Positions 1,148-27,709 of a stretch of DNA of 31,245 bases are shown here, one piece after another. This DNA comes from a virus, in the IMG/VR virus record IMGVR_UViG_3300033141_004299, positions 1 to 31,245 of that record, one strand, 5' to 3'. The position numbers and the translations under genes are program-made. A model generated the notes under the pieces. The model ran no database searches and was not told the DNA's origin. It saw only the letters and a program-made list of their open reading frames with translations. Numbering within the stretch: the stretch's first letter is position 1; every line of letters begins with the position of its first letter.

Positions 1148-1211
1148 ATCAGAAATAAGATTGAAGTTACAAAAGTGTGATTTTTAAAGAAAGATTAAAA
1201 AAGGAATGACC

Positions 1212-2672
1212 ATGAATTTGTTTAGGAAAAGCAAAGAAGAACCAAAGGAGCCGTTTTATGGAGGAGGAGTTACAATTTCCAGCGCTCGATTTAAATCTCC
1301 GTTAAGTCAGGTTATTGCGAAGGCGGAGGAATCAGTCAAAAAAGGCTCGAAGCAAGTCACTGTGTCTATAAAAAAATGGGTTGATATAGAACAGCTTGCG
1401 GCGCATCCGTATAATCCTGATTATTTTTATGAGTTATACGAATCGTGTGAGCCGTTTGCCGCTACGGTTGACCAGATAGCTGTAGACACCGCCGGATTGG
1501 GATGGAAACTCACACTCAAAGAGGGTAAAAAGGAAAGTCAGGACGAAAAGAATAAAATAGAGGCGTTTTTGAGGCATCCTGGCGGAGATAGGACGCTGAG
1601 AGATATATTAAACACATTGATTCGAGATTGGGGAATAACTGGCAGGGCGGCAATTGAGGTTGTGAGGAACGCTAAAGGAGAGGTTGCTGAAATATATCCT
1701 GTAAGACCTGCGACTCTTTGGATTCATAAAGACAGGGAGAAGTATTGTCAGAAGGTTGGATTAGAGAAGGTTTGGTTCAAGCGGTATGGACTTCAAAAGG
1801 ATTTTTCAGCCGAAACTGGTAAGGAAGGAAAATTCAATGAGAAAGATAGAGCAAATGAGATTATCATGTTTGAAACAAAATTTGGAAAGAATCCTTATTA
1901 TGGAATACCTAACATCTTACCAGCTTTGCTTGCTGCGGTATGTTTGAGGGAGATAAGAAGTTTTAATTTGTCCTTTTTTGCCAATTATACCGTGCCTGCT
2001 ATGGCAGTGGTATTGACTGGGAGATGGAAAGAGGGCACAGCAAAAGCCATAACACAATTCCTTGATGAGAAGATAAAAGGCAGTGAAAGTGCTAACAAGA
2101 CCATTGTTCTTGAAGTGCCAAAGGAAGGAGGTGCCAAGTTTGAGCCTCTTACGAAGTTTGAAAAGGAAGCATCATTTATAAAGTATGAGCAAGGTCTTGA
2201 AGATAGCATTTTAATGGTTTATTCAATGCCTCCTTATAGAATTGGTAAACAAGTGGTTGGAAGGCTTGGTGGAACGAACATAAGAGAAGCGACAGAGATT
2301 TATAAAAATTCTGTGATTGAACCGTTGCAAGAAAAACTTGAGAACATCATCAACTTTATGATTATTGAGAAAGGTCTTAACTGTGAATGTTATGAATTTA
2401 AGTTTAACAATCTTGATACAAGGGATTTGACTGATGAGATAGAGAGAGCGGTGAAAGAGATTGAGCATGGAGTGAAGACACCGAATCAGGTCAGGTCAGA
2501 AGTTTATGGATTGGAAGGGTACAGCGGTGGTGACAAGTATTACATAGGTCAGAGCCTCATTGAAGTTGGAGAAGCAGAAGTTACAAAGCAAGATGAAGAT
2601 GACATGGAATTGATTGATGAGGTGGTGAGGTTGAGGAAGGAGATAGAGAAATCAAAAGGAGATGAAAGTTGA
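1212..2672 (+). CDS. Phage portal protein
   Basis: Forms the dodecameric portal ring at the head vertex through which DNA passes. About 486 residues, a usual portal length. Features of the HK97/PBSX portal superfamily include an early region FAATVDQIAVDTAGLGWKL, a turn FGKNPYYGIPNILPALLA followed by a helix, and YSMPPYRIGKQVVGRLGGTN before the helical C-terminal part (around residues 335-355). The C-terminus is charged and coiled. Start choice: an ATG at 1206 directly abuts AAGGA and so cannot use it, whereas the ATG at 1212 lies 6 bases after AAGGA (1201-1205). Lies directly downstream of the terminase, as in most tailed phages. Confidence 0.92.
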   Translation: MNLFRKSKEEPKEPFYGGGVTISSARFKSPLSQVIAKAEESVKKGSKQVTVSIKKWVDIEQLAAHPYNPDYFYELYESCEPFAATVDQIAVDTAGLGWKLTLKEGKKESQDEKNKIEAFLRHPGGDRTLRDILNTLIRDWGITGRAAIEVVRNAKGEVAEIYPVRPATLWIHKDREKYCQKVGLEKVWFKRYGLQKDFSAETGKEGKFNEKDRANEIIMFETKFGKNPYYGIPNILPALLAAVCLREIRSFNLSFFANYTVPAMAVVLTGRWKEGTAKAITQFLDEKIKGSESANKTIVLEVPKEGGAKFEPLTKFEKEASFIKYEQGLEDSILMVYSMPPYRIGKQVVGRLGGTNIREATEIYKNSVIEPLQEKLENIINFMIIEKGLNCECYEFKFNNLDTRDLTDEIERAVKEIEHGVKTPNQVRSEVYGLEGYSGGDKYYIGQSLIEVGEAEVTKQDEDDMELIDEVVRLRKEIEKSKGDES

Positions 2673-5103: not shown

Positions 5104-5319
5104 ATGAGGAGTACAAGTAAGGTGGAAAGTGTGTTTTGTGATATATGTGGTAAAAGACTGACTGGAGGGAGTCATTCCCACTATACTTATTATGGCAGTG
5201 AAATTTATGTTGATTTTAAGGCTGAAGTGTTTTTTAAAAGAGAGTTTCCAGGACAAAGCGAGGTTCCGGACATTTGTGAAGAATGTGCGGATAAGCTTAT
5301 GAAAAATATGAAAAGATGA
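5104..5319 (+). CDS. Small zinc-finger-like protein (71 aa)
   Basis: Two CxxC pairs, CDICGKRL near the N-terminus and CEECADKL near the C-terminus, flank a short beta-rich stretch with SHSHYTYY. They probably bind one zinc ion as a treble-clef or zinc-ribbon-like fold. No family name is recognised. Its stop overlaps the ATG of the MuF gene (ATGA), so the two are probably translated together. Small CxxC proteins are common in this window (see also 7238-7417, 11390-11452, 18372-18791 and 22427-22567). Confidence 0.68.
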   Translation: MRSTSKVESVFCDICGKRLTGGSHSHYTYYGSEIYVDFKAEVFFKREFPGQSEVPDICEECADKLMKNMKR

Positions 5320-7241
5320 ATTCTGTTTTAACAAATGGTTTTACGGAGCGAATTGATAATTTACTTTCTGAGATTATAGAGAAGGTTAATAGGAGAGAGC
5401 TGTCTCAGAGAAGGTTGCATAGGCTTGCCGATAAATGGGAAGTATTGTATCGGAAAAAGGTTGCTGAATGGTTTGAGGTTGTGCGGAAGCAAATTATAAG
5501 AGACCTTAATAAAAAGTTTATCAAAGCAGCAACCCCTTTTAAAATCACTTCCAAACTTACAGACTGGGATTTTATAGAAGCCAATGGAATTGCCACAATA
5601 AAGCCTTTGACCCTTGATATAATGAAAGAGGCTGGTGACGAGTCGTTTAAGTTGGCAGGGATTGAGGGGTCATTTGATGTTTTAAATCCCATATCTGTGG
5701 AGCTGGCAGGCAAGATTACTGCTAAGATGGTTAGGGATGTTACTAAAACGACAAAGCAGGGAATAGCAGAGGCGATTAAACAAGGAATCGTTGAAGGCAA
5801 GTCCATGCCCACGGTAGCAAGAAATATACAGCCACTGATTGGTTTGACAAGACAAGGGGTGAAAGCTGTCGGCAGTTATAAAGAATTTTTGGAAAAGAAG
5901 ATACCGCCGTTAAAAGCTTCTCAAATTGAAAAGAAAGTGAATTTTTATAGAAAGAAATTAATTGAGAAAAGGGCTGAGTTGATAGCAAGGACAGAGACGG
6001 CGAGGGCGATAAATGAGGGAACGATTGAGGGATATAGACAAGGCGGTATTAAAAGGGTTGAATGGGTGACTGCGGCTGGATGTTGTCCTGAATGTGATGC
6101 TCTTAATGGGCATAAATTTACATTAGAAGAGGCGAGTGGAATGATGCCTTTGCATCCTGCTTGTTTAATAGATGCCAAATCTCCTGTTTTTACAAGCAAA
6201 GGGTGGAGAAGGATAGTGGATATTTCGGTGGGAGAGTTGGTATTGACGCATAAGGGAAGATTTAAGAAAGTTATAGAGATTCACAGAAGCAAAAGGAAAA
6301 GTCCAGATGTAGTTAAACTGTTTTTAGGAAAGAAGCACGATTTGGAAAGAATACTGACTGTAACTGATTATCATCCGATTTTGATTGATGGTGAATGGAA
6401 ACCAGCAGAAGACGTTAGAATTGGTGATGTTGTTTCTTATCTGGCTAATAAGCGAGTAATTTCAAATCATGAAGATAATTATGAATTTGTTTCTTTAGAG
6501 GTTACAAATATTAAAAAATGGAGGATTAGGAAACCGAGGACTTTATATAATTTGTCTGTTGAGGAGGATGAAAGTTATGTTGTAAAAGGCTTTGTAGTTC
6601 ATAATTGTAGGTGTACTTGGATCAGTGTGGAAGAACCCCGTAGGATTCCTGAAGCTCCTAAATGGAAACCTATGGAAACTATGGAAGAGGCTAAAAGTTG
6701 GGCGAGAAATCAGGGATTGATTTTAGATTCTCCTTTTCCTAAAGAAGCTGCTTTAGAAGGGATTAAAAGCAGAAAAATGGATTTGATTACTCTTAACCGA
6801 ATAAATGAACAATTTTTTCAGATTCAACAAAGGATTAAGCCGGAATTGGTAAAATATTATAAGAAAGAGGGCATAAGAGTGTTTTCTGTGAATACTGGAA
6901 AATATGGTCCGCCAGGGGTTTCAATGCCTTTAAAAAAGGGTGCTATGGTCGGTATTGACCCATCAAAATCAATTTCAGTTTCCAATGCTAAAAATTTTGT
7001 TGATGCATCAAATGATGGCATTGTGAGACATGAATTAGCTCATGCTTTGGAACATGTTCTTCCTCATGAAAAAGCAGTTATGAGTGGATTATTTTCTATG
7101 GACTATTTTGCTTCAGAATATTCTAAGATTAATTTTAGAGAAAAATGGGCAGAATTTGTTACTAAAATAACAAAACCAGGGTTTAAGATTTCCTCTTTGC
7201 CAAAAAACGCACGAAAAGTTGCGAGGTATTTTTTAAAATGA
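5316..7241 (+). CDS. MuF-like minor head protein with mini-intein and HExxH C-terminal domain
   Basis: 641 residues before splicing, about 493 after. The N-terminal half is helical and leads into a phage Mu gpF/SPP1 gp7-type domain: ELIARTETARAINEGTIEGY, then VEWVTAAGCCPECDALNGH and the HPACR-C zinc motif that ends the domain. The final Cys cluster (HPxCRC) is interrupted by an intein of residues 283-430 (6162-6605), so splicing restores HPACRCTW. The C-terminal extension has VRHELAHALEH (His572, Glu573, His576) and a later Glu613 in EKWAEF, a gluzincin-like zinc metallopeptidase pattern. MuF proteins sit inside the head near the portal, and their variable C-termini can be enzymes or toxins delivered with DNA. 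Starts at ATG 5316, overlapping the previous stop. Confidence 0.9.
   Translation: MNSVLTNGFTERIDNLLSEIIEKVNRRELSQRRLHRLADKWEVLYRKKVAEWFEVVRKQIIRDLNKKFIKAATPFKITSKLTDWDFIEANGIATIKPLTLDIMKEAGDESFKLAGIEGSFDVLNPISVELAGKITAKMVRDVTKTTKQGIAEAIKQGIVEGKSMPTVARNIQPLIGLTRQGVKAVGSYKEFLEKKIPPLKASQIEKKVNFYRKKLIEKRAELIARTETARAINEGTIEGYRQGGIKRVEWVTAAGCCPECDALNGHKFTLEEASGMMPLHPACLIDAKSPVFTSKGWRRIVDISVGELVLTHKGRFKKVIEIHRSKRKSPDVVKLFLGKKHDLERILTVTDYHPILIDGEWKPAEDVRIGDVVSYLANKRVISNHEDNYEFVSLEVTNIKKWRIRKPRTLYNLSVEEDESYVVKGFVVHNCRCTWISVEEPRRIPEAPKWKPMETMEEAKSWARNQGLILDSPFPKEAALEGIKSRKMDLITLNRINEQFFQIQQRIKPELVKYYKKEGIRVFSVNTGKYGPPGVSMPLKKGAMVGIDPSKSISVSNAKNFVDASNDGIVRHELAHALEHVLPHEKAVMSGLFSMDYFASEYSKINFREKWAEFVTKITKPGFKISSLPKNARKVARYFLK
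6162..6605 (+). mobile_element. Mini-intein in the MuF-like protein
   Basis: 148-residue protein-splicing element with no homing endonuclease domain. Cys1 (CLIDAKSPVFTSKGW) starts block A; block B is TVTDYHPILI with the T-x-x-H pattern; blocks F/G end in ESYVVKGFVVHN followed by Cys+1. The boundaries are set by the extein: removal joins HPA to CRCTW, the conserved end of the MuF domain. All canonical splicing residues (Cys1, block B Thr/His, penultimate His, final Asn, Cys+1) are present, so it should be active. Confidence 0.92.
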
Positions 7242-8570: not shown

Positions 8571-11393
8571 ATGAGAATAGAAGAGGTTTCTGAGGATAAA
8601 TTAAAAGAGATAGCTGATGCCGAGTTGTATCAGTTAAGGCTCCGCTCAAGACAATTTTATGAAAAATACACGTTATTTGAAAAAGATAACCTTTTCATAA
8701 ACGTGGATTGGGAAGATTTTTTCAATAAGTATGGGGTTCTCATGTCTGAATTTGAGATGAGGGGTTTGAATTTCAATAAATGGGAAATGGATTCTGTTTT
8801 GTATTCGAGAATATCTCTGGCAGAAGATTTTCAAATTAAAGTTCTTGGTTCAATGGCTCAGACCAAATCTCCGCATGGAAATCACTTTAGCCTGTTGATA
8901 TCAAGGAGAGGTAAGAATATATTGGTTGACCCCGCTGTTCACAGGTCTAAGATTGGTGAAGATATTGACTGTATAGTTATTACTCAGACAGACAAAGACC
9001 ACTGGATTTATATTAAAGAGTTTGAAGGTGTGCCAGTGTATTCGGTTGGTGCGATTCTTGACGCTCTCCCTCCCAATGATTTTCATCCTATGTTAAGACC
9101 GCTGGGGTTTGATGGTCTTATAATACGGCCTATTAAAACTACTCATAAGGTGGGTGCTCCATCTATAGGAATCAGGGTTGATTTTGGGGGCATTAAAATT
9201 TCGATTTTGCCTGAATTCTTATACCTTTCAAAGGCCGCAAGAGATTTAACAGCAAAAACCATTTGGATAGCCGGATGCGGAGATTTTGAAGGTGATGATG
9301 AAAAAGGCGGCAAGCTTTCTTTTGTGTCTCTTATTCAGCTTGCTGAAGAACTGAAACCAAGAATGATTTATCTGACGAATCTTAGAAAGGATATTATTAG
9401 ACATAAAGATAAGGTAAATGAAGTTTTGAAAACCTGGAAAGGTAGAATATTGGAGGATGGCGACATTCTCAAGATAAATGATTTCAGAAAGGTAACGTGG
9501 AAATTAGGAAAGCCCGCCTATAGAATATTTGAGATTGAAGATTTGAAGAATACGCCCTATTTTGATAAAGGTCTGGCACTTGTAGAGGTGAAATTTGACG
9601 GTGTGAGGACAAAGATAACAAAGAAAGGGAATACTATTAAGATTTTTACTGACCCGGAGGATGTAGAGAAGCCGGATAAGACTGATAGGCTTCCTTTTCA
9701 AGTTGCAGAGCTGAAAGATATGGAGGATGATTTTGAGGGGGATTCGGAGATTGTTATCATTGAAGGCGGGGAAGTTCTCCATAGAACAGCAACAAATGCG
9801 TTATTGAATTCTAAATTTGACCCTGAAGAATTGAGTGCCAAAGCTCACATTTATATTTTTGATATTCTTAAATACAAAGGGGAAGACGTTTCAACTTGGC
9901 CTTTGAAAGAGCGAAAGGAATTGTTAAGTAAGTTTAAGGATACCGAACATATTCATTTTGTGCGTGCGACTTCCGATTTAGAGAAAGATGCTTTGAGTTA
10001 TAGAGTGAATCTTGAGAGACCTTCTGAGATTAAGAAGGCAGTTAAAAAGATTATGGGTATGTCCCGAAAGGGAAATAAATATCCCAAATTCTTGGCAGAA
10101 GGTGTTATGATTAAGTTATTAAATGCACCTTATGAAGAACCTCAATCGCATTCAATGGTCAAATGGAAGGAAAAATTTGAGATTGATGCTCTGGTTATAG
10201 AGAGATACCAAATAGTGAGAGAGAAGAAGCTTACTCAGACATTCAATTATTTGCTTGCTGTAGGTGATATTTCTAAAGAATGGGCTGAAGCAATTGAAAG
10301 AGCCGATAAGAATGCGGTTGTAAAATTCAAAGGGAAATATTACAATGTCATCGGAAAATCGGACAATACGAACCAGAAAGTAGAAATTGGCTCAATTCTC
10401 AGGGTGGCATCCGAAGATGTTAATAAATACGAAACAGCCGACCCAAGATATCCTTATTATAAGGCTTATGTCTCCATTGTAATGCAACCGGTGCCGGAAA
10501 AGAATGTTCCAGATAGAATGGAGGTGCTTGAACGACTTGCCGAGTTGACTCCGAGAAGGGAGGCATTTGCAAAACAGTCTATTAAGGATGATGTGAGGAT
10601 AAGTATTAAGAATGGCAGAATTCCTAAGGAAATATATGAGAAGTATGCGAAGAAAAATGAACCTCTACCAAAGGAGTTTTACCCTGATTTTGAAGAAGGG
10701 ATAATGTGGGCGCAGTTCCATTTTAGAGGCCTTGAACCAGACGACACAAAAAAGTGGGAACAAAAAAAGATTAGTTTAGCTGAACTTTTAAAGGGTCACA
10801 ACATGCATTGTGACCTCAGGATGAAATTGGGGGATAAATTTGTCCAATGGGTTTTGACTGAAGATTCTATTGATGGGTATATGAATGCTCTTAAAGGGAA
10901 GAGAGACCCGAAAACGGGTAATGTTAATAAAGCCCTTTGTCTTGTAAAGCCATCAGCTGAAGAGCCTCGAGGATTAAAAAAAGAGGATAAAATAAAGGAA
11001 GCATTATTAGATATGGAGTCTGCTAAACGTGTTTCTGAACTTGCTTTATTAAAAGAGTCTTTTATAATCAGAGCAGGAGATGTTGGAGCAACTGCTTATA
11101 AGGATGCCTGGATGCAGGCGATATGTCTTGGAAGAGTGAAAGCGGGTCTTCAAAGGGATGATGTGCATGAGTATTTCTTTTATCCTGAAAAGTGTAAAGA
11201 TAAAGAAATATTAAATGGCCGATATATAATTCGATGTTTTAAAGTGGGAGGAGGAAATAACAGATGGTGGTTTTGGAAGTGTAGTGATAATCCATTGCCA
11301 ATCGACCCTATTGAGCACAAAGCACAAAAAAATTCGTATTATCCGATCCCCGCAAAGAAAGTAAAAAAGTTTGGGAGAGAGAGTTATAGATGA
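8571..11393 (+). CDS. Multidomain MBL-fold / ATP-dependent DNA ligase / 3'-phosphoesterase-like protein
   Basis: 940 residues. Residues about 95-320 read as a metallo-beta-lactamase fold (NHFSLLISRRGKNILVDPAV, TQTDKDHW, THKVGAPSIGIRV) whose usual HxHxDH motif is altered to Gln139-x-Asp141-x-Asp143-His144; His192 is kept. Residues about 330-640 are an ATP-dependent ligase: adenylation motif I EVKFDGVR (Lys341), motif III IYIFDILKYKGEDV (Asp431), motif IV LAEGVMIK (Glu510), motif V MVKWKEKFEIDALV (Lys531/Lys533), then an OB-like part. Residues about 710-800 resemble the LigD phosphoesterase: WAQFHFRG, then MHCDLRM (His746, Asp748, Arg750) and FVQWVLTEDS. A C-terminal part includes NGRYIIRCF and RWWFWK. 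It probably seals DNA with end processing. It begins just after the transglycosylase stop and ends overlapping the next ORF (ATGA). Confidence 0.88.
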   Translation: MRIEEVSEDKLKEIADAELYQLRLRSRQFYEKYTLFEKDNLFINVDWEDFFNKYGVLMSEFEMRGLNFNKWEMDSVLYSRISLAEDFQIKVLGSMAQTKSPHGNHFSLLISRRGKNILVDPAVHRSKIGEDIDCIVITQTDKDHWIYIKEFEGVPVYSVGAILDALPPNDFHPMLRPLGFDGLIIRPIKTTHKVGAPSIGIRVDFGGIKISILPEFLYLSKAARDLTAKTIWIAGCGDFEGDDEKGGKLSFVSLIQLAEELKPRMIYLTNLRKDIIRHKDKVNEVLKTWKGRILEDGDILKINDFRKVTWKLGKPAYRIFEIEDLKNTPYFDKGLALVEVKFDGVRTKITKKGNTIKIFTDPEDVEKPDKTDRLPFQVAELKDMEDDFEGDSEIVIIEGGEVLHRTATNALLNSKFDPEELSAKAHIYIFDILKYKGEDVSTWPLKERKELLSKFKDTEHIHFVRATSDLEKDALSYRVNLERPSEIKKAVKKIMGMSRKGNKYPKFLAEGVMIKLLNAPYEEPQSHSMVKWKEKFEIDALVIERYQIVREKKLTQTFNYLLAVGDISKEWAEAIERADKNAVVKFKGKYYNVIGKSDNTNQKVEIGSILRVASEDVNKYETADPRYPYYKAYVSIVMQPVPEKNVPDRMEVLERLAELTPRREAFAKQSIKDDVRISIKNGRIPKEIYEKYAKKNEPLPKEFYPDFEEGIMWAQFHFRGLEPDDTKKWEQKKISLAELLKGHNMHCDLRMKLGDKFVQWVLTEDSIDGYMNALKGKRDPKTGNVNKALCLVKPSAEEPRGLKKEDKIKEALLDMESAKRVSELALLKESFIIRAGDVGATAYKDAWMQAICLGRVKAGLQRDDVHEYFFYPEKCKDKEILNGRYIIRCFKVGGGNNRWWFWKCSDNPLPIDPIEHKAQKNSYYPIPAKKVKKFGRESYR

Positions 11394-11452
11394 TTGCTTT
11401 AAAATGTTTCTATTGTGGAAGAGAGCATTATAGATATGGAGGTGGTCGGTAG
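11390..11452 (+). CDS. 20-aa CxxC mini-protein
   Basis: ATG 11390 overlaps the ligase-gene stop (ATGA), and the TAG at 11450 is followed directly by ATG 11453. It encodes a 20-residue peptide with KCFYCGREHYRYGGGR, a zinc-knuckle-like CxxC with a His. The tight linkage on both sides suggests translational coupling. It may be a genuine mini-protein, or simply a coupling device: its 3' end contains the GGAGGTGG that serves the next start. Confidence 0.45.
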   Translation: MIALKCFYCGREHYRYGGGR

Positions 11453-11602
11453 ATGCCTTATCAGATATTGGCAAAACAAGAAAAGATTAATAGTCCTACC
11501 TTTGCATATCAAGCAGTTTATGGAAGAGAGGATTTTTGCCTGGTAGGGGTGTTGGGCACAAAGAACATATATGTGATGGAGTTAGTGTGGATGAGCATAT
11601 AA
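11453..11602 (+). CDS. Likely true 5' start of the XkdF-type gene, shifted frame
   Basis: ATG 11453 has a strong GGAGGTGG about 9 bases upstream, and the frame runs 49 codons. Its first 28 codons (MPYQILAKQEKINSPTFAYQ ... YGREDF) read like a normal phage protein N-terminus. After the T5 run at 11533-11537 the -1 frame continues as LPGRGVGHKEHICDG, the long downstream protein, whereas this frame continues with an unconvincing hydrophobic tail. I infer that the two were one frame and are joined by a -1 shift or separated by a one-base deletion. Confidence 0.5.
   Translation: MPYQILAKQEKINSPTFAYQAVYGREDFCLVGVLGTKNIYVMELVWMSI
11531..11539 (+). other. Possible -1 frameshift site (T run)
   Basis: GATTTTTGC. 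A ribosome reading GAT-TTT-TGC can slip the Phe tRNA back one base on the T run and continue TTG-CCT into the downstream open frame. An extra T would give the same fusion. Whether this is recoding, mutation or sequence error cannot be decided here. Confidence 0.4.
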
Positions 11603-14139
11603 AGTGCGAATGGATTGAGGAGCTTAATAAGATTCCAGGAATAGAGATGCGAGCAAGCTGTTATGATGATAAAACGGAAGTATATACTGATGATGGTTTT
11701 AAATTATTCAGAGATGTTTCAACTGACCAACATGTTTTGACTCTAAATCCTGAAAGTCAGAGTCTTGAATGGAGTAAAATAGTAAGAATATTTAAATATC
11801 CTTATAAGGGGAAATTAAAAAGATTCAAATCCAAGAGTTTGGACCTTTGTGTAAGTCCTGACCATAATATGGTATATACTCTTCATTGGAATAGGAATAA
11901 GATTCATTTCTCGACTCCGTCTAAGATGCATAAAAAAGCTATGTTTTTGAATAAGGCTAATTGGACAGGGGAATCGTCAGAAAAAATAAATATTAATGGT
12001 AATGATTTTAATATGATAGCGTTCTGTCAATTTATGGGCTATTATCTTTCAGAAGGTTCTCTTAAAATGCGGAATGGGAAAAAGACCGTTACTAATTCTG
12101 AGTTAGCTACTAATTATTCTATTACAATTGCTCAAAGCAACGATACAACTCGTGAAGAGATGAAAAAGAATCTATTAGGATTGGGTGTTAAGATTAGGGA
12201 GGGTTATAAAGCAATATATATTTCTGATAAACGATTAGGAAAGTATCTATCTCAATTTGGTAAAAGTTTTGAAAAATTTATTCCTTTAGAAATTAAAAAA
12301 TTAGACCAAAAATATATTAAGGTTTTTCTTGATGCTTATTGTGTTGGTGATGGACATATAAGTCTCTCCCACACATGGAAAGGAAGTCGTTTTTCTGAAA
12401 GGAGAGTATTTACAACATCATCTAAACGAATGGCAGATGATATTGGGGAACTTTTGATAAAGATAGGACGGTGGCCCCATTATTATTTGAAAGAAACGAA
12501 GGGAAAATCCCATAAATTTGGGAACGGTGTTTATAAAATTAATCATAATGTATGGACAATCACAGATTGCCGTTCTAAATTTATTTGGAAATATGATATT
12601 AGCGATGAAAAATATGTGGGATTTATTTATGATTTGGAAGCCGCTCATAACCATATTTTATTAGTGAGAAAAAATGGACGAGTTGTTTGGTCTGGAAATT
12701 GCGAAGGGCATTCTGATGAGCGGGTTGCTTACATTGTATTTAGGTTGAGGGATGGGGTTAAGATACACCCTGTTGATATTGTTGCTGAATTAAATAAGAG
12801 AGAGGGACTTTATTCTAAGACCGATGTTGGTAGTGAAGGCAAATCAAGAATTGTTGTTGCAGGCAAAACGTATTATGGAAAGCCAGGGTGGGAGAAGTGG
12901 TGGGCTGGAATGATTGAAGATTTAAAGGATGTAATGGGTAAGGTTTCTAAAGATTCTTATTTGGGATTTGAAAGGATTCGGGAGCTTTCTAAAGATGGTG
13001 AATTTCAATACCTCGAGTTTGATACATCAGAATTAGTCCCTTTTGTTTGGATACCTGAATTTATTTCTCTTGCTGGTTCTGTTTTGTACGAAAGGGAAGA
13101 TGGTAGAGAACCAAATGATATTGATCTTATTGTGAGAGCGGAAGATGAGGGCGAGGATAAGTATAAGGTGATATTAGATTCGGCATTGAGATTGAAGATT
13201 GACAGGGTATTGGAAGAGCAGTTTGGAAATAAGTCAAAGCAGTGGGTAGGAACAACATACGGTCCGAACTGGCGTTATCAGCCTCTCTTTGATTTGGTAC
13301 TTGTTCCTCATAAGCCAACTGAAATTCGAGAAGTGAATGAGTCTGAATTTCGAGATAGATATTATAAAGACAAGGGGGCTGATATTGAGAAGTTGCATTT
13401 GGAGGAATTTAGAAGCACAGGTGTTGATAGGGATATAAAGAATCCAAGAGACAGATGGAAGCAACTATTTGCCGACCTGCGTTATCTCTCTTTAGGTTAT
13501 GCCAGAATTAAAGAGGGAAAAGGATGGGGTGAATGGAAACTTGATGATGTGAAGAGATATTTTGCAAAAGTTGTGGATGCTCTTCGGTCAGTGTATTTTC
13601 CTATTTTGCCCCCAAATGAAGGGGATGAAGAGTATGACACTGATTATTGGAAGTTGTATAGAATTTCAAGTAGTTTAATGAAGACAAAGCCCCCAAGTAA
13701 GGAAACTGTTAAGTTATGGGATAGAAAAAGAAGCGAAATCATTAAAGAAGAATTGGAAAAAAGAGTTATTCCAATATTTGATATTTCTAAATCGGAAGAT
13801 GAGCACATTGTTTGCGGAGTTGTTTACGAACCGGATGAGGTTGACACGGATGGACACGAGGCAAGTGCAGAGGAAATTGAGAAGGCGGCTTATGATTTTA
13901 TGGAAAATGTACGCAAATTTAAGATAGGTCATAGGTTTGAATTTACGAAACAAGTATCTATTTTAGAGAATGTGATTGCACCCGTTGATTTTCTTTTGGA
14001 GGGACGTTCTGTGAAGCATTTTGTGAAAAGAGGTACGTGGTATATGGTTTTGAGAATAAATGATATGAATGTGTGGAAGAAAATAAAGTCGGGGGAGATA
14101 ACAGGGTTATCTATGGCGGGAAAAGCAATGATTTCTTAG
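11536..14139 (+). CDS. Nucleotidyltransferase-like / XkdF-type prohead protease with intein (C-terminus split off)
   Basis: 867 residues from a TTG, about 520 after removal of the 347-residue intein. The N-terminal extein has HICDGVSVDEHIKCEWIEEL and SCEGHSDERVAYIVFRL around the intein site. A Pol-beta-type nucleotidyltransferase signature follows: LAGSVLYEREDGREPNDIDL (Gly514-Ser515 ... Asp528-x-Asp530) and a third acid in FDLVLVPH (Asp586). The last about 100 residues are the XkdF protease: HIVCGVVYEPDEVDTDGHEA, KIGHRFEF (His799), GTWYMVLRI and GEITGLSMAGKA (Ser859), probably the His/Ser catalytic residues that cut scaffold and capsid. The protein stops right after the Ser motif. In relatives the chain continues into LKxIxLxEISLVxxPAN, which is found at 15207, beyond an endonuclease gene. 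The true start is probably 11453. Confidence 0.85.
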   Translation: MPGRGVGHKEHICDGVSVDEHIKCEWIEELNKIPGIEMRASCYDDKTEVYTDDGFKLFRDVSTDQHVLTLNPESQSLEWSKIVRIFKYPYKGKLKRFKSKSLDLCVSPDHNMVYTLHWNRNKIHFSTPSKMHKKAMFLNKANWTGESSEKININGNDFNMIAFCQFMGYYLSEGSLKMRNGKKTVTNSELATNYSITIAQSNDTTREEMKKNLLGLGVKIREGYKAIYISDKRLGKYLSQFGKSFEKFIPLEIKKLDQKYIKVFLDAYCVGDGHISLSHTWKGSRFSERRVFTTSSKRMADDIGELLIKIGRWPHYYLKETKGKSHKFGNGVYKINHNVWTITDCRSKFIWKYDISDEKYVGFIYDLEAAHNHILLVRKNGRVVWSGNCEGHSDERVAYIVFRLRDGVKIHPVDIVAELNKREGLYSKTDVGSEGKSRIVVAGKTYYGKPGWEKWWAGMIEDLKDVMGKVSKDSYLGFERIRELSKDGEFQYLEFDTSELVPFVWIPEFISLAGSVLYEREDGREPNDIDLIVRAEDEGEDKYKVILDSALRLKIDRVLEEQFGNKSKQWVGTTYGPNWRYQPLFDLVLVPHKPTEIREVNESEFRDRYYKDKGADIEKLHLEEFRSTGVDRDIKNPRDRWKQLFADLRYLSLGYARIKEGKGWGEWKLDDVKRYFAKVVDALRSVYFPILPPNEGDEEYDTDYWKLYRISSSLMKTKPPSKETVKLWDRKRSEIIKEELEKRVIPIFDISKSEDEHIVCGVVYEPDEVDTDGHEASAEEIEKAAYDFMENVRKFKIGHRFEFTKQVSILENVIAPVDFLLEGRSVKHFVKRGTWYMVLRINDMNVWKKIKSGEITGLSMAGKAMIS
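11659..12699 (+). mobile_element. LAGLIDADG intein in the XkdF-type protein
   Basis: 347 residues. Cys1 in CYDDKTEVYTDDGFKLF opens block A; block B is LDLCVSPDHNMVYT. Two LAGLIDADG dodecapeptide motifs, FCQFMGYYLSEGSL and VFLDAYCVGDGHIS, mark an endonuclease that spreads the intein. The end is HNHILLVRKNGRVVWSGN before Cys+1, with Ser-Gly-Asn in place of the usual His-Asn, a known variant. Splicing rejoins RAS to CEGHSDE. Confidence 0.92.
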
Positions 14140-14183: not shown

Positions 14184-15050
14184 ATGGGAAGAACGAAAAT
14201 AAAAATAGAAAAGACTTGTTTATATTGCGGTAAAACGTTTACTGTTTATCCATCAGGAAGCTCTCGTAGATTTTGTTCTAAGGAATGTAGTAATAAAAAT
14301 AGAATGAATAAAAGGACTGGTATAGAAAAAGATTGTTTAGTTTGTGGCAAAGTATTTTATGTTTTTCCGAAAGATAAACATCAAAAATGTTGTAGTATGA
14401 AATGTTCTTTCATATTAAGGAAGAAAAAGACCCCAAAAATAAAAATTATATGCAACGGTTGTGGTAAAGAGTTTTTTGTTACGCCTTCACACAGCCATAC
14501 CAAGTTTTGTAATAAGAAATGTTCCCATGAATATCGAATGGTGGAAAGAACATGTGAGTGGTGTGGCAAAAAATTTAGTGTTAAATTATCAAGAGTTAGG
14601 AAAGGTGGGGGCAAATTTTGTAGTCGTAATTGCTATAGTAGATGGCAAGGAAGCGATGAAGGTAGGAAAAAGATGCGTGAGACAATATTAGAGAGTTATG
14701 CATCTGGTGGAAGAAAGCCAAATCGTCACTTTAACACCTCAATCGAAGTTGATATGGAAAATGAATTGAAGAAAATCGGATTGAATTACACTCCTCAATA
14801 CTATATCAAAGGTACTGGTTTTGTGGATTTCTTCTTGTCTGATTATAATGTTATAATTGAATGTGATGGAGACTACTGGCATAATTTAGAGGAACAGAAG
14901 AAAAAAGATGTTTCCAGAGATTTTAATGCTGAATTTCTTCATCAATATCCCACATTGAGATTCTGGGAACACGAAATAAAAGAATCACCAAAGGAATGTA
15001 TTAATAAAATTAAGAAATTTATAAATAAGAGAGAGGCGATATTAGAATAG
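14184..15050 (+). CDS. Homing endonuclease: four zinc ribbons plus Vsr-like nuclease
   Basis: 288 residues from ATG 14184; the frame is open upstream but overlaps the protease gene. Four successive Cys modules (CLYCGKTF/FCSKEC, CLVCGKVF/CCSMKC, CNGCGKEF/FCNKKC, CEWCGKKF/FCSRNC) are DNA-binding zinc fingers. The C-terminal domain (about 180-288) is of the PD-(D/E)XK Vsr-like EDxHD type: SIEVDMENELKKIGLNY, FVDFFLSDYNVIIECDGDYW-H and LRFWEHEIKES. Such enzymes are free-standing or intron-borne homing endonucleases (the I-Bth0305I family). It lies exactly where the XkdF protein should continue and has no clear ribosome binding site, consistent with a selfish insertion. No group I intron core was found around it. 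Confidence 0.85.
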   Translation: MGRTKIKIEKTCLYCGKTFTVYPSGSSRRFCSKECSNKNRMNKRTGIEKDCLVCGKVFYVFPKDKHQKCCSMKCSFILRKKKTPKIKIICNGCGKEFFVTPSHSHTKFCNKKCSHEYRMVERTCEWCGKKFSVKLSRVRKGGGKFCSRNCYSRWQGSDEGRKKMRETILESYASGGRKPNRHFNTSIEVDMENELKKIGLNYTPQYYIKGTGFVDFFLSDYNVIIECDGDYWHNLEEQKKKDVSRDFNAEFLHQYPTLRFWEHEIKESPKECINKIKKFINKREAILE

Positions 15051-15137
15051 ATTGTTTTTTCACTTGTTTTTTTTAAGAAAATAAGTTAAATTATATATTA
15101 CTTAGAATTTTTTGGTTTTAGGAATAGACAAAGCTAT

Positions 15138-15189
15138 TGCCTAATCAACAAAAAAGGTTTGTAATAACTGATGTTGATTAGGCATTTTT
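15138..15189 (+). terminator. Rho-independent terminator-like hairpin after the endonuclease gene
   Basis: A perfect 13-bp inverted repeat TGCCTAATCAACA (15138-15150) / TGTTGATTAGGCA (15172-15184) with a 21-base loop, followed by TTTTT and then GTTGGG. It lies 88 bases after the endonuclease stop and just before the next ribosome binding site (GGGAGGAG at 15193-15200). It could end the endonuclease transcript. If strong, it would also cut off the scaffold and capsid genes, so it is probably leaky or a relic of the inserted element. Confidence 0.6.
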
Positions 15190-15206
15190 GTTGGGAGGAG
15201 ACTACG

Positions 15207-16136
15207 GTGGCGAAAAGACTCAAGCAAATACAGTTAGATGAGATTTCACTTGTTTCTGCTCCTGCAAACAGGAAAAAGTTCTATATTATAAAGGAACAAA
15301 AGTGCCCCGATTGTGGGGGCATTCTGAAGCAAATGAGAATTGATGAAGATGAAGCTTGCACTCAATTGAAATGTTCAGAATGCGGACGTATAATTGAAAG
15401 TTCAACCATAAAGGAGGTTTTTGAAATGGAAGACCTTATGAAAATTTACAAAGAACTCACAGGTGACTCGGAAGATTTTTCTGAGGAACAAATTAGCATT
15501 TTGAAAGCGATGAAGGAAGAGACCCTTAATGCAATCAAGGGTGCTCTCAATATGCTGAATAAGTACAAGGCAGACATGCCTAAAGATTTGAAAGATGCTG
15601 TTGACGTACTTGCGAAGTATGTTACTGGAAAAGCTCCTTATCCATATCCTTATCCTACGAAAAAGGATGCGGAGATTTTAGACCAGCTTATTGAGAAACA
15701 CAAAAAGGAAGTTGTGGAATTGGAAAAGGCGGGCAAAAAACTTTCCAAAGATACAATTGAGAAAATTAGAAGCGTTATCAAATCGCTTGCTGGTCTGCCC
15801 GATGCTATTAAGACTCTCCAAAGTCTGCTTCCTGAGGGGGAGGAAGTTAAGAAAGATACTAATGAAGATGACAAATCTGGCGAGTTAGCAGAGCAAGTCA
15901 AGAAAGAATTTACCGATAAGCTTGGTGAAATTGTCAAAAGCATTGAAAAGATGACCGAGGAGAGCAAGAAAACGGCAGAAGAGGTAAAGAAATCTGCTGA
16001 GGATATGGACAAACGTTTAACAGTGCTTGAAGAAGAAAAAGGTATTAAGAAGAGCATTGATGGTGAGGGGGATGATGATGAGGATGAGGAAGCGGGAAAC
16101 TTTCCATCGATAACCAAAGCTCTTCAGAATGGATAA
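15207..16136 (+). CDS. XkdF C-terminal segment and capsid scaffold protein
   Basis: 309 residues from GTG 15207, which follows GGGAGGAG by 6 bases; an upstream in-frame TTG lies inside a hairpin and is unlikely. It opens with KRLKQIQLDEISLVSAPANR-KKFYIIK, the sequence that follows the XkdF protease domain in related phages, so it is the displaced 3' part of that gene. A zinc ribbon follows (CPDCGG ... KCSECG), then a long charged, helical scaffold-like region with KAGKKLSKDTIEKIRSVIKS and a coiled coil (about residues 230-285), ending with an acidic run. A second in-frame start at 15426 has a perfect ribosome binding site and would give the scaffold alone (236 residues). The major capsid gene is next, as expected for a scaffold. 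Confidence 0.82.
   Translation: MAKRLKQIQLDEISLVSAPANRKKFYIIKEQKCPDCGGILKQMRIDEDEACTQLKCSECGRIIESSTIKEVFEMEDLMKIYKELTGDSEDFSEEQISILKAMKEETLNAIKGALNMLNKYKADMPKDLKDAVDVLAKYVTGKAPYPYPYPTKKDAEILDQLIEKHKKEVVELEKAGKKLSKDTIEKIRSVIKSLAGLPDAIKTLQSLLPEGEEVKKDTNEDDKSGELAEQVKKEFTDKLGEIVKSIEKMTEESKKTAEEVKKSAEDMDKRLTVLEEEKGIKKSIDGEGDDDEDEEAGNFPSITKALQNG
15411..15428 (+). promoter_or_regulatory. Internal ribosome binding site for nested scaffold
   Basis: AAGGAGG (15411-15417), 8 bases before an in-frame ATG (15426) inside the scaffold gene. The product would begin MEDLMKIYKELTGDSEDF, directly after the zinc ribbon, and share the remaining 236 residues. This copies the lambda C/Nu3 arrangement, where a scaffold is made from an internal start in the protease gene. 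Confidence 0.65.
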
Positions 16137-16206: not shown

Positions 16207-16246
16207 TCAAACTAACTTAACAAAAAAGAATGGGGTGAAAAGAAGA

Positions 16247-17329
16247 ATGATTACAAATCAGGATTTACTTTCCAAAAAGAAGTTCATTAAGGCGGCAAGC
16301 TTGAAAGCTTTACCGTCAATTGAACTTACTGAGGAAGAAGCCGATAAATTTATTGATTATGTCATAGACCAGTCCAAGTGGAAAGACAATGCTCGGATTG
16401 TAAAAATGGCAAAACCCGAAAAGCTTATTAGATACATTGATTTTGCTTCTGGAACAAGGTTTTTGAAACCTGCTGATACATTTTCAAGTTCGGATTATCA
16501 GAAAGAATTCACAAGCGATAAGATTACTCTTTCAAGTAAGAAAGTAAGGGGTTGTGTTGTTATTTATGATGATGATCTTGAAGATAATATTGAGGGACCA
16601 GCTTTTGCTGACCATTTAATGAAACTTGTTGCCATTAAGGCGGCGAATGAACTTGATGAGGCCTTTTGGGTAGCGGTTAAATCAACGGGTACTCCTTATG
16701 ACGATACGGACATTCGTGTCCTTTGGGATGGTTGGAGACATTGTTTATTCAATGATACCGTATTGGGTAATGGTGTGAATTTGCTTGATGCGTCAAACAA
16801 TATTACCGGGCATAAAAGCGACTTTACCAATGCTGGTAAAATTGCAGAGAGGAATGCCACCTCAGGTGTTTGGGAAATCAAATTTGCTAAGATGCTTGCG
16901 ACTTTGCCTTCAAAATATAAAGCCGCAGGACTTACTAATTTAAGATTTTTCTGTAATGATATTGTGGGAAATGATTATGTTGAGGCTCTTTCTGCACGCT
17001 CAACTGTACTTGGTGATAATGCAATTCTCGGCGATGCTCCGTTGAAATATAACAGAGTTCCAATAGTTGATATTCCTCAAATGCCAGTTACTTATACTCA
17101 ATCAGGTGATACAGGTAGGGGGTTGGAAGAATATGGTTCTGGTAGTTATACCGAATGTGTGCTTACTCATAAAGAGAATTTTATAATTGGTATGCAAAGA
17201 GAATTGAAGATGGAAACGAAACGCGCCCCGGAGGACGAGGCTACTTATGCATTTTACAGCATGCGTTTTGATTTGGCTCTACAAAATCCTGAAGCTGCAG
17301 TTTTACTCTGCAACCTGACCACCGGATAA
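16247..17329 (+). CDS. Major capsid protein (HK97 fold)
   Basis: About 360 residues; builds the icosahedral shell. The order protease-scaffold-capsid and the sequence pattern support the call: an N-terminal helical arm, FASGTRFLKPADTFSSSDYQ followed by KEFTSDKITLSSKKVRG (the E-loop/P-domain region), VVIYDDDLEDNIEGPAFADH, a spine helix KLVAIKAANELDEAFW, then an A-domain FAKMLATLPSKYKAAGLTNL-RFFCN and a closing FYSMRFDLALQNPEAAVL. ATG 16247 is chosen because GGGGTGA lies 9 bases upstream; GTG 16235 falls within that site. No long delta domain is seen, so the separate scaffold probably directs assembly and is removed by the XkdF protease. Confidence 0.9.
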   Translation: MITNQDLLSKKKFIKAASLKALPSIELTEEEADKFIDYVIDQSKWKDNARIVKMAKPEKLIRYIDFASGTRFLKPADTFSSSDYQKEFTSDKITLSSKKVRGCVVIYDDDLEDNIEGPAFADHLMKLVAIKAANELDEAFWVAVKSTGTPYDDTDIRVLWDGWRHCLFNDTVLGNGVNLLDASNNITGHKSDFTNAGKIAERNATSGVWEIKFAKMLATLPSKYKAAGLTNLRFFCNDIVGNDYVEALSARSTVLGDNAILGDAPLKYNRVPIVDIPQMPVTYTQSGDTGRGLEEYGSGSYTECVLTHKENFIIGMQRELKMETKRAPEDEATYAFYSMRFDLALQNPEAAVLLCNLTTG

Positions 17330-22440: not shown

Positions 22441-22567
22441 ACTTTGCGAATGCGGCTGTGGTCGAGAAGTGAAAGTAGGAAATAGGTTTATTCATGGACA
22501 TAACAGGAGAAAAGAATGGAAAAAACCTTCTATCTTTTTGAGAGGAATAAGAATTGTCGGAAAATAA
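22427..22567 (+). CDS. Small CxCxC zinc-binding-like protein (46 aa)
   Basis: ATG 22427 overlaps the end of the methyltransferase gene. It reads KLCECGCGREVKVGNRFIHG-HNRRKEW, a compact C-x-C-x-C ... G-x-R-F-x-x-G-H-x-x-R motif I know from small phage proteins and from endonuclease-associated modules. Its 3' end overlaps the TTG start of the glycosyltransferase gene by 14 bases. It is probably translated as a coupled gene; metal binding is inferred. Confidence 0.65.
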   Translation: MVRIKLCECGCGREVKVGNRFIHGHNRRKEWKKPSIFLRGIRIVGK

Positions 22568-24545
22568 CAGACTAATTGTAAATACAGATGAGAAGTTGTT
22601 TAGTAGGAGGATTCTGGTTGGTGTTCCGATGACAGGTTTGGTGCGGAGCGAGTGGGTAATGGCGAGATACGGACAAGCTATCCCAGCAAATTGGAGCTCT
22701 GTAGACATGGTACAATTTATTGACCAATATTCCCCTCTAAAATATCTGGTTGCAGATGCGAGAAATATTATAGCGACGGATTGTGTAGAAAAAGACTTCC
22801 AATTTTTGCTTTTCATTGACCACGATGTAATTCTGCCACAAGGGTTTCTATTAGCAGTTAATAAGAGAATTCAAGAAAATGAAATTCCAATGTGGAGTGG
22901 ATTATATTTTACGAAATCCGTACCGTCTGACCCACTTGTATATAGAGGTCGTGGAAATAGCTATTATAAAGATTGGAAAATGGGAGATGAGGTTTGGGTG
23001 GATGGAATACCAATGGGCTGTTTTCCTCCTGGTCAAAAAGTTCATTTAAATTGTGGTTGGAGAAATATAGAAGATGTGGAATCGGGAGAAAGTGTTTTAT
23101 CCCATACAGGAAAACAGCAAACTGTATATAAAACAATGAAAAGATTTTATAATGGTGATATGATTAGAATTAAGACCGCAAAGTTTTGTGTTCCCGTAGA
23201 ATTAACAAAAGAACATCCTGTTTTGGCAGTTAGATCTAAAAAGACTCAAAGAAATGGTGCTATAAGAAAGCCCGACAGTCCTCTTCGTCCATATAATAGA
23301 TATGAACCTATTTGGATTAAGGCTGGAGATTTGACAGAGGAACACATTGTTTTATATCGCATAAACAAGAAAATAGTGGAGAAAAATGAGATACGGTTAA
23401 GTGATGGGTTTAAAAATTTAGTTTTTAATGGTGATAAAGTTGGGTTTCCTAATCAGAATAAATACCAAGTAAATTGGGTTAAAAATAGTATTAAAATTGA
23501 TGGGAATTTAATGCGTCTTATAGGTTATTATCTTGCTGAAGGAGAGGCAAGAAATTCTCAATTGCGATTTTCTTTCAATGTAAATGAACAAGAATATATT
23601 GATGATGTAATAAGTCTTGTTAAAATGATATTTGGATTGGATAAAGTAAATAGAGATGAAAGAAACAATGGAGTGAGACTAACATTTTCATCTAAAATAT
23701 TATCAAAATGGTTCGAAAAACAATTTTGTCAGGGTTCAAAAAATAAGATAATCCCTGAATGGTGCATGTTTTTAAACTCTGATTTACAAATTGAATTATT
23801 AAAAGGGTATTTACGTGGTGATGGTCATTATGATTTAAGTAGTTTGAGGAGAAGAATTCTTTGTAATAGTGTTTCTGAGGAATTGATATTACAATTGAGA
23901 GAAATCTTTTTACGATTGGGGTATATACCTTCTCACACAAAGGAAATTAATCACGACAAATCTAATAAAGATATATTTAGATTTGGTTTATCGTTATTTG
24001 GTGGACATGCTTCTGATTTGCTAAAAAAGATAGAACCAAATTTAGAGTTCAATCAGAAAATAAAAAAGGAAAACGGTTGTGAAGCTTGGATTAAAGATGA
24101 TTATGTCTGGCTTCCGATTAGAAAAATTGAAAGATACCATTATCAGGGGGAAGTTTTTAATTTATCAGTTAAGAATGATGAATCTTATGTGGTTTCTGGT
24201 TTTACAGTTCATAATTGCACCCTTATTCATGGAAGTATTTTAAAAGTGCTATATGACGAGAGTGAGGAATACGTTTTAGGGGGAATGAAGGTTAGAAAAA
24301 TATTTGAAACTCCTTCTAAAACATTTTACGACCCTGAAACGAGAGGGTGGTTTAATCTGGGAGCTACGGAAGATTTGACGTTATGCACACGGATTATGAG
24401 AGATAATATATTTGCTAAGGCAGGTTGGAAAGAATTTCAAAGGAAAAAATTTCCATTTTTGATTGATACTAAACTTTTCTGCCGTCATATTTCATTTGAT
24501 GGTGTTCAGTACCCCGCTCGTGGGGAAGAGCGACAGTTTATGTGA
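22554..24545 (+). CDS. GT-A glycosyltransferase (family 2-like) with intein
   Basis: 663 residues before splicing, 264 after. TTG start with AGAGGA 7 bases upstream. The extein has ILVGVPMTGLVRSEWV, then the nucleotide-sugar DxD site in FQFLLFIDHDVILPQG (Asp89-His-Asp91) and a segment ending DEVWVDGIPMG. The intein interrupts IPMG|CTLIHGS. Downstream is NLGATEDLTLCTRI (acid in the ED motif, typical of GT2 catalysis) and IDTKLFCRHI. It probably transfers sugar to a virion protein or host-surface mimic; the adjacent fibre proteins and methyltransferase favour virion glycosylation. Confidence 0.86.
   Translation: MSENNRLIVNTDEKLFSRRILVGVPMTGLVRSEWVMARYGQAIPANWSSVDMVQFIDQYSPLKYLVADARNIIATDCVEKDFQFLLFIDHDVILPQGFLLAVNKRIQENEIPMWSGLYFTKSVPSDPLVYRGRGNSYYKDWKMGDEVWVDGIPMGCFPPGQKVHLNCGWRNIEDVESGESVLSHTGKQQTVYKTMKRFYNGDMIRIKTAKFCVPVELTKEHPVLAVRSKKTQRNGAIRKPDSPLRPYNRYEPIWIKAGDLTEEHIVLYRINKKIVEKNEIRLSDGFKNLVFNGDKVGFPNQNKYQVNWVKNSIKIDGNLMRLIGYYLAEGEARNSQLRFSFNVNEQEYIDDVISLVKMIFGLDKVNRDERNNGVRLTFSSKILSKWFEKQFCQGSKNKIIPEWCMFLNSDLQIELLKGYLRGDGHYDLSSLRRRILCNSVSEELILQLREIFLRLGYIPSHTKEINHDKSNKDIFRFGLSLFGGHASDLLKKIEPNLEFNQKIKKENGCEAWIKDDYVWLPIRKIERYHYQGEVFNLSVKNDESYVVSGFTVHNCTLIHGSILKVLYDESEEYVLGGMKVRKIFETPSKTFYDPETRGWFNLGATEDLTLCTRIMRDNIFAKAGWKEFQRKKFPFLIDTKLFCRHISFDGVQYPARGEERQFM
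23019..24215 (+). mobile_element. LAGLIDADG intein in the glycosyltransferase
   Basis: 399 residues. Starts at Cys1 of CFPPGQKVHLNCGW; block B is VELTKEHPVLAV; the endonuclease motifs are LIGYYLAEGEA and LLKGYLRGDGHYDL; the end is DESYVVSGFTVHN before Cys+1. Its final blocks (FNLSVKNDESYVVSGFTVHN) closely resemble those of the MuF mini-intein (YNLSVEEDESYVVKGFVVHN), suggesting common ancestry. Splicing restores GIPMGCTLIHG. Confidence 0.93.
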
Positions 24546-27500: not shown

Positions 27501-27709
27501 TCACCGAAGATGTTGATATTGATGCAAGTAGGGTATTATCGGTTTATGAATCAATTTCAATTGCTGAAAATGTGCCTATCTCTGGAGTCATTCAGGGCGA
27601 TATAGACGTGTCATTTAGTATAAGTCAGCCTGATGTGTCTTTTTCAACCATACAACCAGACGTTGTTTTTTCTGTAAGTCAGCCAGATGTGAAGTTTGAG
27701 AGAGGATGA
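24554..27709 (+). CDS. Giant repeat fibre protein with DNRLRE-like domain
   Basis: 1051 residues. An N-terminal beta-rich region (about 1-270) is followed by a DNRLRE-like domain (about 280-450): LFRGITLFDTSALPDDCTIT and the following AVLSIRGQS match the LxxFDLSxIPxGxTIxxAxLxL pattern. From about residue 456 to 1012 there are about 26 tandem units of about 20-22 residues of the type I-N-V-N-D-T-I-T-L-A-E-N, each ending in a hydrophobic strand. The C-terminus has a second repeat DVxFSxxQP (9 residues, three full copies). It is probably a long, stiff fibre or stalk. No clear ribosome binding site except AAGAG next to the ATG. Confidence 0.85.
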   Translation: MKVKKVTNSEKVVTDPVMLKELARQKIDKDYVEFHEDYNAQHPFAKVYRDRKSGKRFQVISGLPKARKTDGVKIEAGWNGSKGKFTAKPNLFTAFVNGTKVDISVLNDQPNGTKAGDTVSWNPQLFIDDKRVSPISENATLLSVDPVNENYNENTLEWDYGVCKRRLRIIEGRVREKWVFAEKPDGKIRIKHNQSGKIKLRLGSGIDANGEHLPIEVINDDEERLDVFGVDFPVEIGASATFYPDADQETSSVDGYVKEEKGLGNGVAWETLRSSSGSGVDDSGNYVYCTLIYADNNSDKWKDLFRGITLFDTSALPDDCTITDAVLSIRGQSKHDGLNIYASTYLVIDTSNPASNTALVAGDFDSFGNNSQSGAISYNNFDTTDYNNFTLTETGKGNIDKTGISKFGVRERTYDLQGSAPDWVDTEYLSLRGWSSDKGAGFQPKLIVTYTEPALEVNVNDSVSTTDVVSKALLISLISIFSAVSPIDAVAVDAPFVPPHSINVNDTITLAENSPLVMDDLGIDAHDSVEASDVDEVELVSFVDVHDAVGIAEDINTILIPLINVNDAVSIAENIDTRLYFVINVDDSVTLAENVSSVMDDMEISLDDDITIEEWSPVNCPQEINVYDSVSIVSESVEISIAWPINVYDTITLAESITTVLPDALAIDINDAVGVAEDVTVSIYDFTINVNDTITPTEDVSLLQISYISAGDDITLAEDVSSVMTDMAVDVNDAVSTAESIGLILISLINTNDAVSTAESISFVMSDSEISVSESITIVENTNEVLVSFIDTDDTITLAESIEVVPDDLTVNLNDNVILEEDITVSIYDFSIDVNDMVSVNEYTTLAIGNLVPSVYDTIILAEDVSLTMSDIDVGVNDSITLSELISTALAYTINVNDTVLVIENVDVDLLISIDESDTITLAENVGINIPITIFIDEDIALAESIDIGISDFEINVNNTITINELAISDLQVSINTNDSIAITEDVDIDASRVLSVYESISIAENVPISGVIQGDIDVSFSISQPDVSFSTIQPDVVFSVSQPDVKFERG
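25919..27580 (+). repeat. About 26 tandem ~60-66 bp coding repeats
   Basis: Each unit encodes about 20-22 residues with the core [IV]-[ND]-x-[NYD]-D-[ST]-[IV]-[ST]-[IL]-A-E-[NDS]. The DNA has drifted, but two neighbouring units (near 26745 and 26808) share an identical 20-base stretch, indicating recent duplication. The spacing of those two is 63 bases (21 codons). Confidence 0.85.
27605..27697 (+). repeat. Three and a half 27-bp repeats encoding DVxFSxxQP
   Basis: Units at 27605-27631, 27632-27658 and 27659-27685, with a partial unit to 27697, encode DVSFSISQP-like 9-mers at the fibre C-terminus. Such QP-containing repeats may form a short triple-strand stem. Confidence 0.7.

Follow-up and report, generated by a model that had tools for sequence, protein, structure and literature searches.

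Polyvalent proteins, as described by Iyer et al. 2017 (PMC5512222), are long chains, encoded among virion genes, in which many domains of nucleic-acid and conflict enzymes are strung together; the parts of that account drawn on here predict that they are packaged and injected, and place an assemblin-like protease, in those chains that have one, always at the C-terminus. Bacterial and archaeal LigD unites an ATP-dependent DNA ligase (LIG), a polymerase (POL), and a 3'-phosphoesterase (PE), acts with Ku, and is permuted in its domain order between species (PMC8656161). Here we describe a viral locus that shares features with both. It lies in a 31-kb linear virus fragment (IMG/VR record IMGVR_UViG_3300033141_004299, positions 1 to 31,245; hereafter, the window) and comprises two proteins on the + strand, namely P1 (8571..11393; 940 amino acids) and P2 (11536..14139). 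P1 consists of a helical domain (HX), a metallo-beta-lactamase (MBL)-like domain, a DNA ligase (adenylation and OB domains), and a LigD-type PE; P2 consists of an intein-split X domain, a minimal nucleotidyltransferase (NTase), and an XkdF head maturation protease, which is C-terminal in P2 and in fused relatives, as is the protease of polyvalent proteins. The two belong to a recurrent set, whose members are HX, the NTase, the ATP-dependent DNA ligase, and the LigD-type PE, with a Dam methylase and the MBL as optional members, and which is often fused to the head maturation protease. We document these domains, their conservation and linkage, the integrity of their active sites, and their fusion to head genes. 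We give an even chance to the proposal that P1 and P2 represent one form of a conserved set of enzymes that is built into the head gene block, is carried into the prohead, and heals and seals genome DNA on entry.

Relatives were gathered by searches with P1, with the PE alone, and with the NTase alone, and then with domain profiles, which yielded 78 contigs. These contigs were selected by the domains in question, and the linkage is therefore fairly measured by cross-recovery: 17 of the 19 loci found by the NTase-only search also encode a ligase and a PE (the other two are short or truncated contigs), and 48 of the 58 loci found by the PE-only search carry a ligase. Across the 78 contigs, ligase and PE occur together in 66, with the NTase as well in 50 and XkdF as well in 29. 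The domain order is permuted among them (NT-LIG-PE, LIG-NT-PE, NT-PE-LIG-XKD, MBL-LIG-PE, DAM-NT-LIG-PE-XKD, and more). XkdF shares one open reading frame (ORF) with the NTase, the ligase, or the PE in 28 contigs, and all four are found on a single ORF in eight. Of the contigs, 21 encode a D12-class Dam methylase, which in L010 is lodged between the ligase and the PE. A preliminary description of this DNA, which had overlooked both HX and the Dam methylase joining the set in relatives, had proposed a search for the same gene pair in other phages; the set proved to be widely conserved in other viruses, including its link to the head protease. As separate observations, the PE is fused to, or lies beside, XkdF with no recognizable ligase in L035, L036, L038, L020, L068, and L049, where the ligases may be divergent or the PE may have a role alone; and an ASCH-like segment (LVAPHAEMI..GxKxxIVKSxxF) occurs in or near set proteins of L012, L015, L009, and L010, with a weak Pfam match in L009 only.

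The set is also tied to head genes. A recognized portal, XkdF, capsid, or terminase gene is present in 37 of the 66 ligase-plus-PE contigs, as judged with profiles from few families only; in six contigs that gave no such match (L085, L084, L040, L043, L048, and L063), the set adjoins portals, head proteases (phrog_133, phrog_80, and phrog_976), or capsid genes that belong to other families in PHROGs. That the set keeps its place beside non-homologous head genes argues for a head-related role. Such a role could be exercised in the producing cell, where the set would work on nicks, gaps, and damaged 3' ends of concatemeric DNA before or during packaging, its seat in the head operon serving for timing and portal recruitment. 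This alternative would account for the proximity to portal and head genes, as well as for the placement of ligase and PE on an ORF apart from XkdF in the window and in several relatives; we nevertheless consider it unlikely, because a Dam methylase is unneeded for a packaging-only role and because the 28 fusions of ligase, PE, or NTase to the head protease would place those chains inside the prohead. Head maturation proteases of the XkdF type work inside the prohead, and chains fused to XkdF would therefore be carried there.

In enzymes that act on nucleic acids, inteins tend to be retained at active-site motifs that are essential. Among the relatives, five have a catalytic or signature motif of the set interrupted by an intein: in the ligase, (i) after KWDG in motif I (L034) or (ii) in motif V (L058); and in the PE, (iii) between His and Cys of H-C-D-L-R (L009), (iv) in GEVGxT (L007), or (v) in GxQKPYFHEYF (L046). 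The ligase and PE motifs that bear them are thus probably functional.

The ligase of P1 occupies residues 310-661 (9498..10553, +), with the motif I lysine in K341-FDG at position 9591. Pfam DNA_ligase_A_M matches residues 334-533 at 6.8e-16; motifs I, III, IIIa, IV, and V are complete; and in the AlphaFold2 model of P1 (mean pLDDT 82.6), residues 310-661, OB domain included, resemble human LIG1 (Z about 24) and T4 ligase (Z 22.4). A match of the ligase family profile to Thermococcus DNA ligase (1.7e-32) extends across the adenylation domain as well as the OB domain. The motif I lysine is retained in 47 of 49 cases, and the motif III glutamate is also conserved. No separate DNA-binding domain was recognized between the MBL and the ligase of P1.

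The PE-like domain of P1 spans residues 709-940 (10695..11390, +) and contains QFH at 715-717, HCDLR at 746-750, GDVGAT at 836, and HEYF at 866. In P. aeruginosa LigD, the PE binds Mn through His42, His48, and Asp50 (PMC8656161); these residues, together with Gln40 and Arg52, are retained in the family as Q-x-H...H-x-D-x-R, with Q-x-H at residues 715 and 717 and H746-x-D748-x-R750 in the window. HEYF is a new motif and is nearly invariant. Pfam did not call the PE on the window P1 alone, whereas 10 of 39 family members match LigD_N (best 1.4e-7), other matches being few, single, and weak. A search of the PE family profile against the PDB placed two archaeal LigD-type PE domains at the top, with non-significant E values (0.38 and 0.54) and collinearity in two motif blocks. 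None of the top 50 structural rows for the P1 model, which were filled by the ligase and the MBL, matches the PE to a known structure. A chance occurrence of the motif was rejected, given its conservation in about 60 loci with LigD_N matches among them. The preliminary description had claimed a complete ligase core (motifs I, III, IV, and V) and a LigD-type H-x-D-x-R motif in P1, and both claims hold, the latter now extended by the upstream Q-x-H. On its residues, we classify the domain as a divergent, and not a standard, LigD-type PE.

Upstream of the ligase lie two further domains. HX (residues 5-85; 8583..8825, +) gives profile matches in most relatives, where it usually stands upstream of the NTase or the ligase. 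It appears to be an undescribed helical domain with the pattern L..LH...H..Y...H..V..EM.kRgl.H, and it is split by a large insertion in L011, L020, and L021. The MBL fold (residues 86-303; 8826..9479, +) is PhnP/RNase Z/Apyc1-like: its matches in the P1 model are to PhnP (Z 25.7), RNase Z (Z about 23), and Apyc1 (Z 22), and the best structural rows comprise PhnP, YhfI, PqqB, RNase Z, and Apyc1, with no beta-CASP chain among the matches listed, which does not prove absence. In place of the metal motif THxHxDH, the window has TQTDKDH (at 8982), and every member of the window clade that carries the MBL has lost HxHxDH, which is intact in L012, L015, L040, L043, L058, L061, L062, L093, and L097. 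The window MBL is thus unlikely to be a functional nuclease, since the metal motif is gone. The MBL nuclease claimed in the preliminary description stands as a fold, but the Artemis-type label falls with the loss of the metal motif, and a working Artemis-like MBL nuclease was rejected as a candidate.

P2 lacks its natural N-terminus. Relative to a near-identical contig (L075), in which the frame reads through, a 7-bp deletion near 11515 removes the first residues of P2, whose X domain starts upstream. Residues 42-388 (11659..12699, +) are a LAGLIDADG intein inserted at MRAS/CEGHS, with Pfam matches to LAGLIDADG_3 and Intein_splicing, both sub-threshold; an intein-free version of the insertion site is found in L069. 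The putative minimal Pol-beta-superfamily NTase follows at residues 499-609 (13030..13362, +), with GS...DID at residues 514-530 (13075-13125) and a third Asp in FDLVL (586). In a 33-sequence alignment, the Gly and both Asp residues of hG[GS]...DxD are invariant. The XkdF/Peptidase_S78_2 head maturation protease closes the chain at residues 745-866 (13768..14133, +), with a Pfam match at 1.4e-25 (residues 750-864) and a phrog_3017 match at 1.2e-32; structural comparison is modest (T4 gp21, Z 7.4; varicella-zoster virus protease, Z 4.9). The Pol-beta-type GS...DxD...D signature fused to XkdF, as first described, is thereby borne out, third Asp included, with the amendments that a large part of P2 is an intein and that its first residues are cut. 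XkdF also occurs in proteins whose annotations read RNA ligase, Dam, Zeta toxin, or ChaB (phrog_14859, phrog_1530; BFVD A0A6J5PIT0, A0A6J5M6S8), which raises the question of whether it is a general carrier of packaged enzymes.

The NTase and MBL relationships bear on two other explanations. The set could repair RNA, e.g., tRNA cut by host defense RNases, with the NTase restoring 3' nucleotides, the PE healing, the ligase sealing, and the MBL ancestrally RNase Z-like. Several points favor this: the similarity of the NTase to minimal and CCA-type enzymes, the closeness of the MBL fold to RNase Z and PhnP, the existence of an 'RNA ligase' family with a C-terminal XkdF (phrog_14859), and jumbo phages with RNA-ligase-associated NTases (PMC7824862). 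However, the ligase resembles DNA ligases across its adenylation and OB domains, and the LigD PE is known in DNA repair as a 3'-DNA/ribonucleotide healing enzyme (PMC8656161), so that we hold RNA repair to be rather improbable. Alternatively, the proteins could be injected anti-host effectors, with the NTase and MBL modifying or degrading host defense components or signaling nucleotides and the ligase and PE as auxiliaries. While the parts of the polyvalent-protein account drawn on here do list NTases, Dam, and similar effectors (PMC5512222), and while the anti-Pycsar enzyme Apyc1 is among the fold matches of the MBL, and the NTase resembles an MntA-type antitoxin, the most constant members of the set are the ligase and the PE (66 of 78 contigs), with their catalytic residues intact, and the MBL is an optional member that has degenerated in the window clade. 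We therefore regard an effector function as very improbable.

The pairing of a ligase with a PE, as in LigD, and the top NCBIfam match of the window ligase, TIGR02779, could point to non-homologous end joining (NHEJ) of the Ku type, or to a circularization machine in which a LigD-like complex joins the ends of the injected genome. Yet Ku (PF02735) and the LigD polymerase of the archaeo-eukaryotic primase type (TIGR02778) were each absent from all 42 records searched, several of which are fragmentary, with B. subtilis as a positive control in both cases, and the window MBL is probably not a working nuclease. We accordingly consider this explanation quite improbable, and Ku and LigD POL partners were rejected as candidates. 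A Ku-free circularization, e.g., of cohesive ends, may occur. The preliminary description had likened the enzymes to the NHEJ toolkit of LigD and to Artemis-type end processing; given the absence of Ku and POL from those 42 records, the degenerate PhnP/RNase Z/Apyc1-like MBL, and the MNT-like NTase, that label falls, and the set is not LigD-type NHEJ. An NTase acting as a template polymerase is likewise unsupported, the weak matches going to minimal NTases.

Carriage of the enzymes in the prohead for genome repair or circularization, as first proposed, is still the most economical account, with packaging and activity both inferred. In our preferred reading, the XkdF protease would bring the chain into the prohead by co-assembly, the chain would be freed or trimmed at maturation, and its large domains would remain with the DNA and reach the next cell along with it. 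There, the PE would clean 3' ends, the NTase would have ends or a protein partner as its target, and the ligase would seal nicks and breaks caused by host nucleases, packaging, or ejection, while Dam, where present, would methylate the incoming DNA against restriction. Several observations weigh against this reading. (i) Relatives mostly have Gln/Glu and Trp in place of His84 and Tyr88, which are essential in the LigD PE, and the window clade shows no clear equivalents, so that the chemistry may differ. (ii) Several relatives have His, Asn, or Arg in place of the third Asp of the NTase. (iii) The NTase is more like minimal MNT-type enzymes than like a polymerase, but the statistics are weak: 7 of 33 sequences match NTP_transf_2 (best 0.0019), and a profile search gave a weak match to MntA-type 5yep (E 0.19). 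(iv) The structure model of P2 is poor (pLDDT 57), which leaves the NTase fold putative. (v) In the window, NTase-XkdF and ligase-PE are separate ORFs, and P2 alone has a direct route into the prohead.

In the window, the genes run from terminase through portal, MuF, P1, P2, and a homing-endonuclease ORF to a scaffold-like gene and then the gene for the major capsid protein, an order that agrees with the earlier placement of the enzymes inside the head genes. All are on the + strand where placed: the portal protein (1206..2672; Pfam 1e-33), the MuF head protein (5316..7241; mini-intein at about 6162-6605), the scaffold-like protein (15171..16136; sharing homology with the C-terminal portion of phrog_3017 head proteases), and the major capsid protein (16235..17329; phrog_1623 7.8e-51, with major capsid homologs). 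The top named match of the portal is Methanobacterium virus Drs3 (32.5%, 3e-48), whose order is terminase-portal-MuF-XkdF-capsid, with no annotated gene separating MuF and XkdF; because of this plain order, P1 together with the NTase portion of P2 resembles an insertion between MuF and XkdF. The homing-endonuclease-like ORF in the protease/scaffold gap (about 14187-15050) combines treble-clef zinc fingers with MTES_1575/DUF559, and a related ORF in L001 (15670-16422) is flanked by NTase and X-XkdF ORFs. The fragment holds three inteins, namely those of MuF, P2, and a glycosyltransferase-like protein (22554-24545; intein at 23019-24215), the latter two bearing LAGLIDADG. Relative to L075, the window has 68 additional bases ahead of the scaffold gene (15104-15171). 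A 1051-residue protein (24554-27709) carries numerous degenerate repeats (VNDxVxxxExV) and has no family matches; an Rfam search of the window found nothing.

Among 50,697 named phage records, ligase plus PE occurs only in ANMV-1, which encodes a TATA-binding protein and is a putative virus of archaea (PMC4372165). As an archaeal marker, that protein was found in ANMV-1 only and thus does not place the hosts of most contigs. A first scan of cellular contigs, with a PE set led by L011, had no matches; a second returned five contigs from archaeal metagenome-assembled genomes, assigned to Archaeoglobales, Methanosarcinales, another Euryarchaeota lineage, Geothermarchaeota, and Thermoprotei. A plasmid search had no matches. 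At least some of the set-bearing tailed viruses are probably archaeal, and an archaeal host is likely for the window. We tentatively suggest, at somewhat less than even confidence, that a partly archaeal lineage of tailed viruses uses fusion to its maturation protease to pack into the head a Ku-independent machine for healing and sealing DNA breaks (NTase, DNA ligase, and LigD-type PE, with Dam and MBL as additions), and that this machine enters along with the genome and reverses the cuts of host nucleases.

Polyvalent, packaged multi-enzyme proteins are already known as a general idea. Giant-virus virions, too, carry DNA repair enzymes, which provides the concept of a packaged repair set, albeit in unrelated viruses and with base-excision enzymes; a literature search on this point returned nothing specific. 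Phages inject antirestriction proteins and effectors; if our reading is correct, a co-delivered repair kit would be a different counter-defense strategy, in which cuts are mended instead of prevented. Large head proteins of archaeal viruses, which databases now label 'hypothetical' or 'DNA ligase', would thereby gain a function open to testing, and the kit would also represent a natural arrangement of a ligase and a LigD-type PE that is free of Ku and the LigD polymerase.

In the open-licence literature, we found no recurrent ligase-PE-NTase core with XkdF, and no report of a ligase with a prohead protease or of archaeal viruses with a fused ligase. The sole named record with a comparable chain, ANMV-1 AJP62006 (KP703175), carries NTase, ligase, and PE on one chain directly 3' of the portal gene; it differs in that neither MBL nor Dam was found on the chain and XkdF was absent from the stretch searched, and its annotation is only ATP-dependent DNA ligase, which the text of the ANMV-1 paper leaves unmentioned (PMC4372165). 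Head proteins that join Dam to XkdF in Pseudomonas phages (phrog_1530) and XkdF-RNA ligase proteins (phrog_14859) likewise place a nucleic-acid enzyme upstream of XkdF, but with one enzyme each and without the ligase-PE-NTase combination. For polyvalent proteins, the parts of their description drawn on here include Pol-beta NTases, Dam, and others, without a DNA ligase or a LigD-type PE (PMC5512222), whereas the present set has a permuted ligase-PE-NTase core with XkdF. Compared with LigD, the set shares the ATP-dependent ligase and the PE, lacks POL, Ku, and equivalents of His84 and Tyr88 in its PE, and adds a minimal NTase, a head protease, and a viral head context. The set is best read as an end-healing-and-sealing analogue of LigD, free of Ku and of the LigD polymerase, in the style of the polyvalent proteins.

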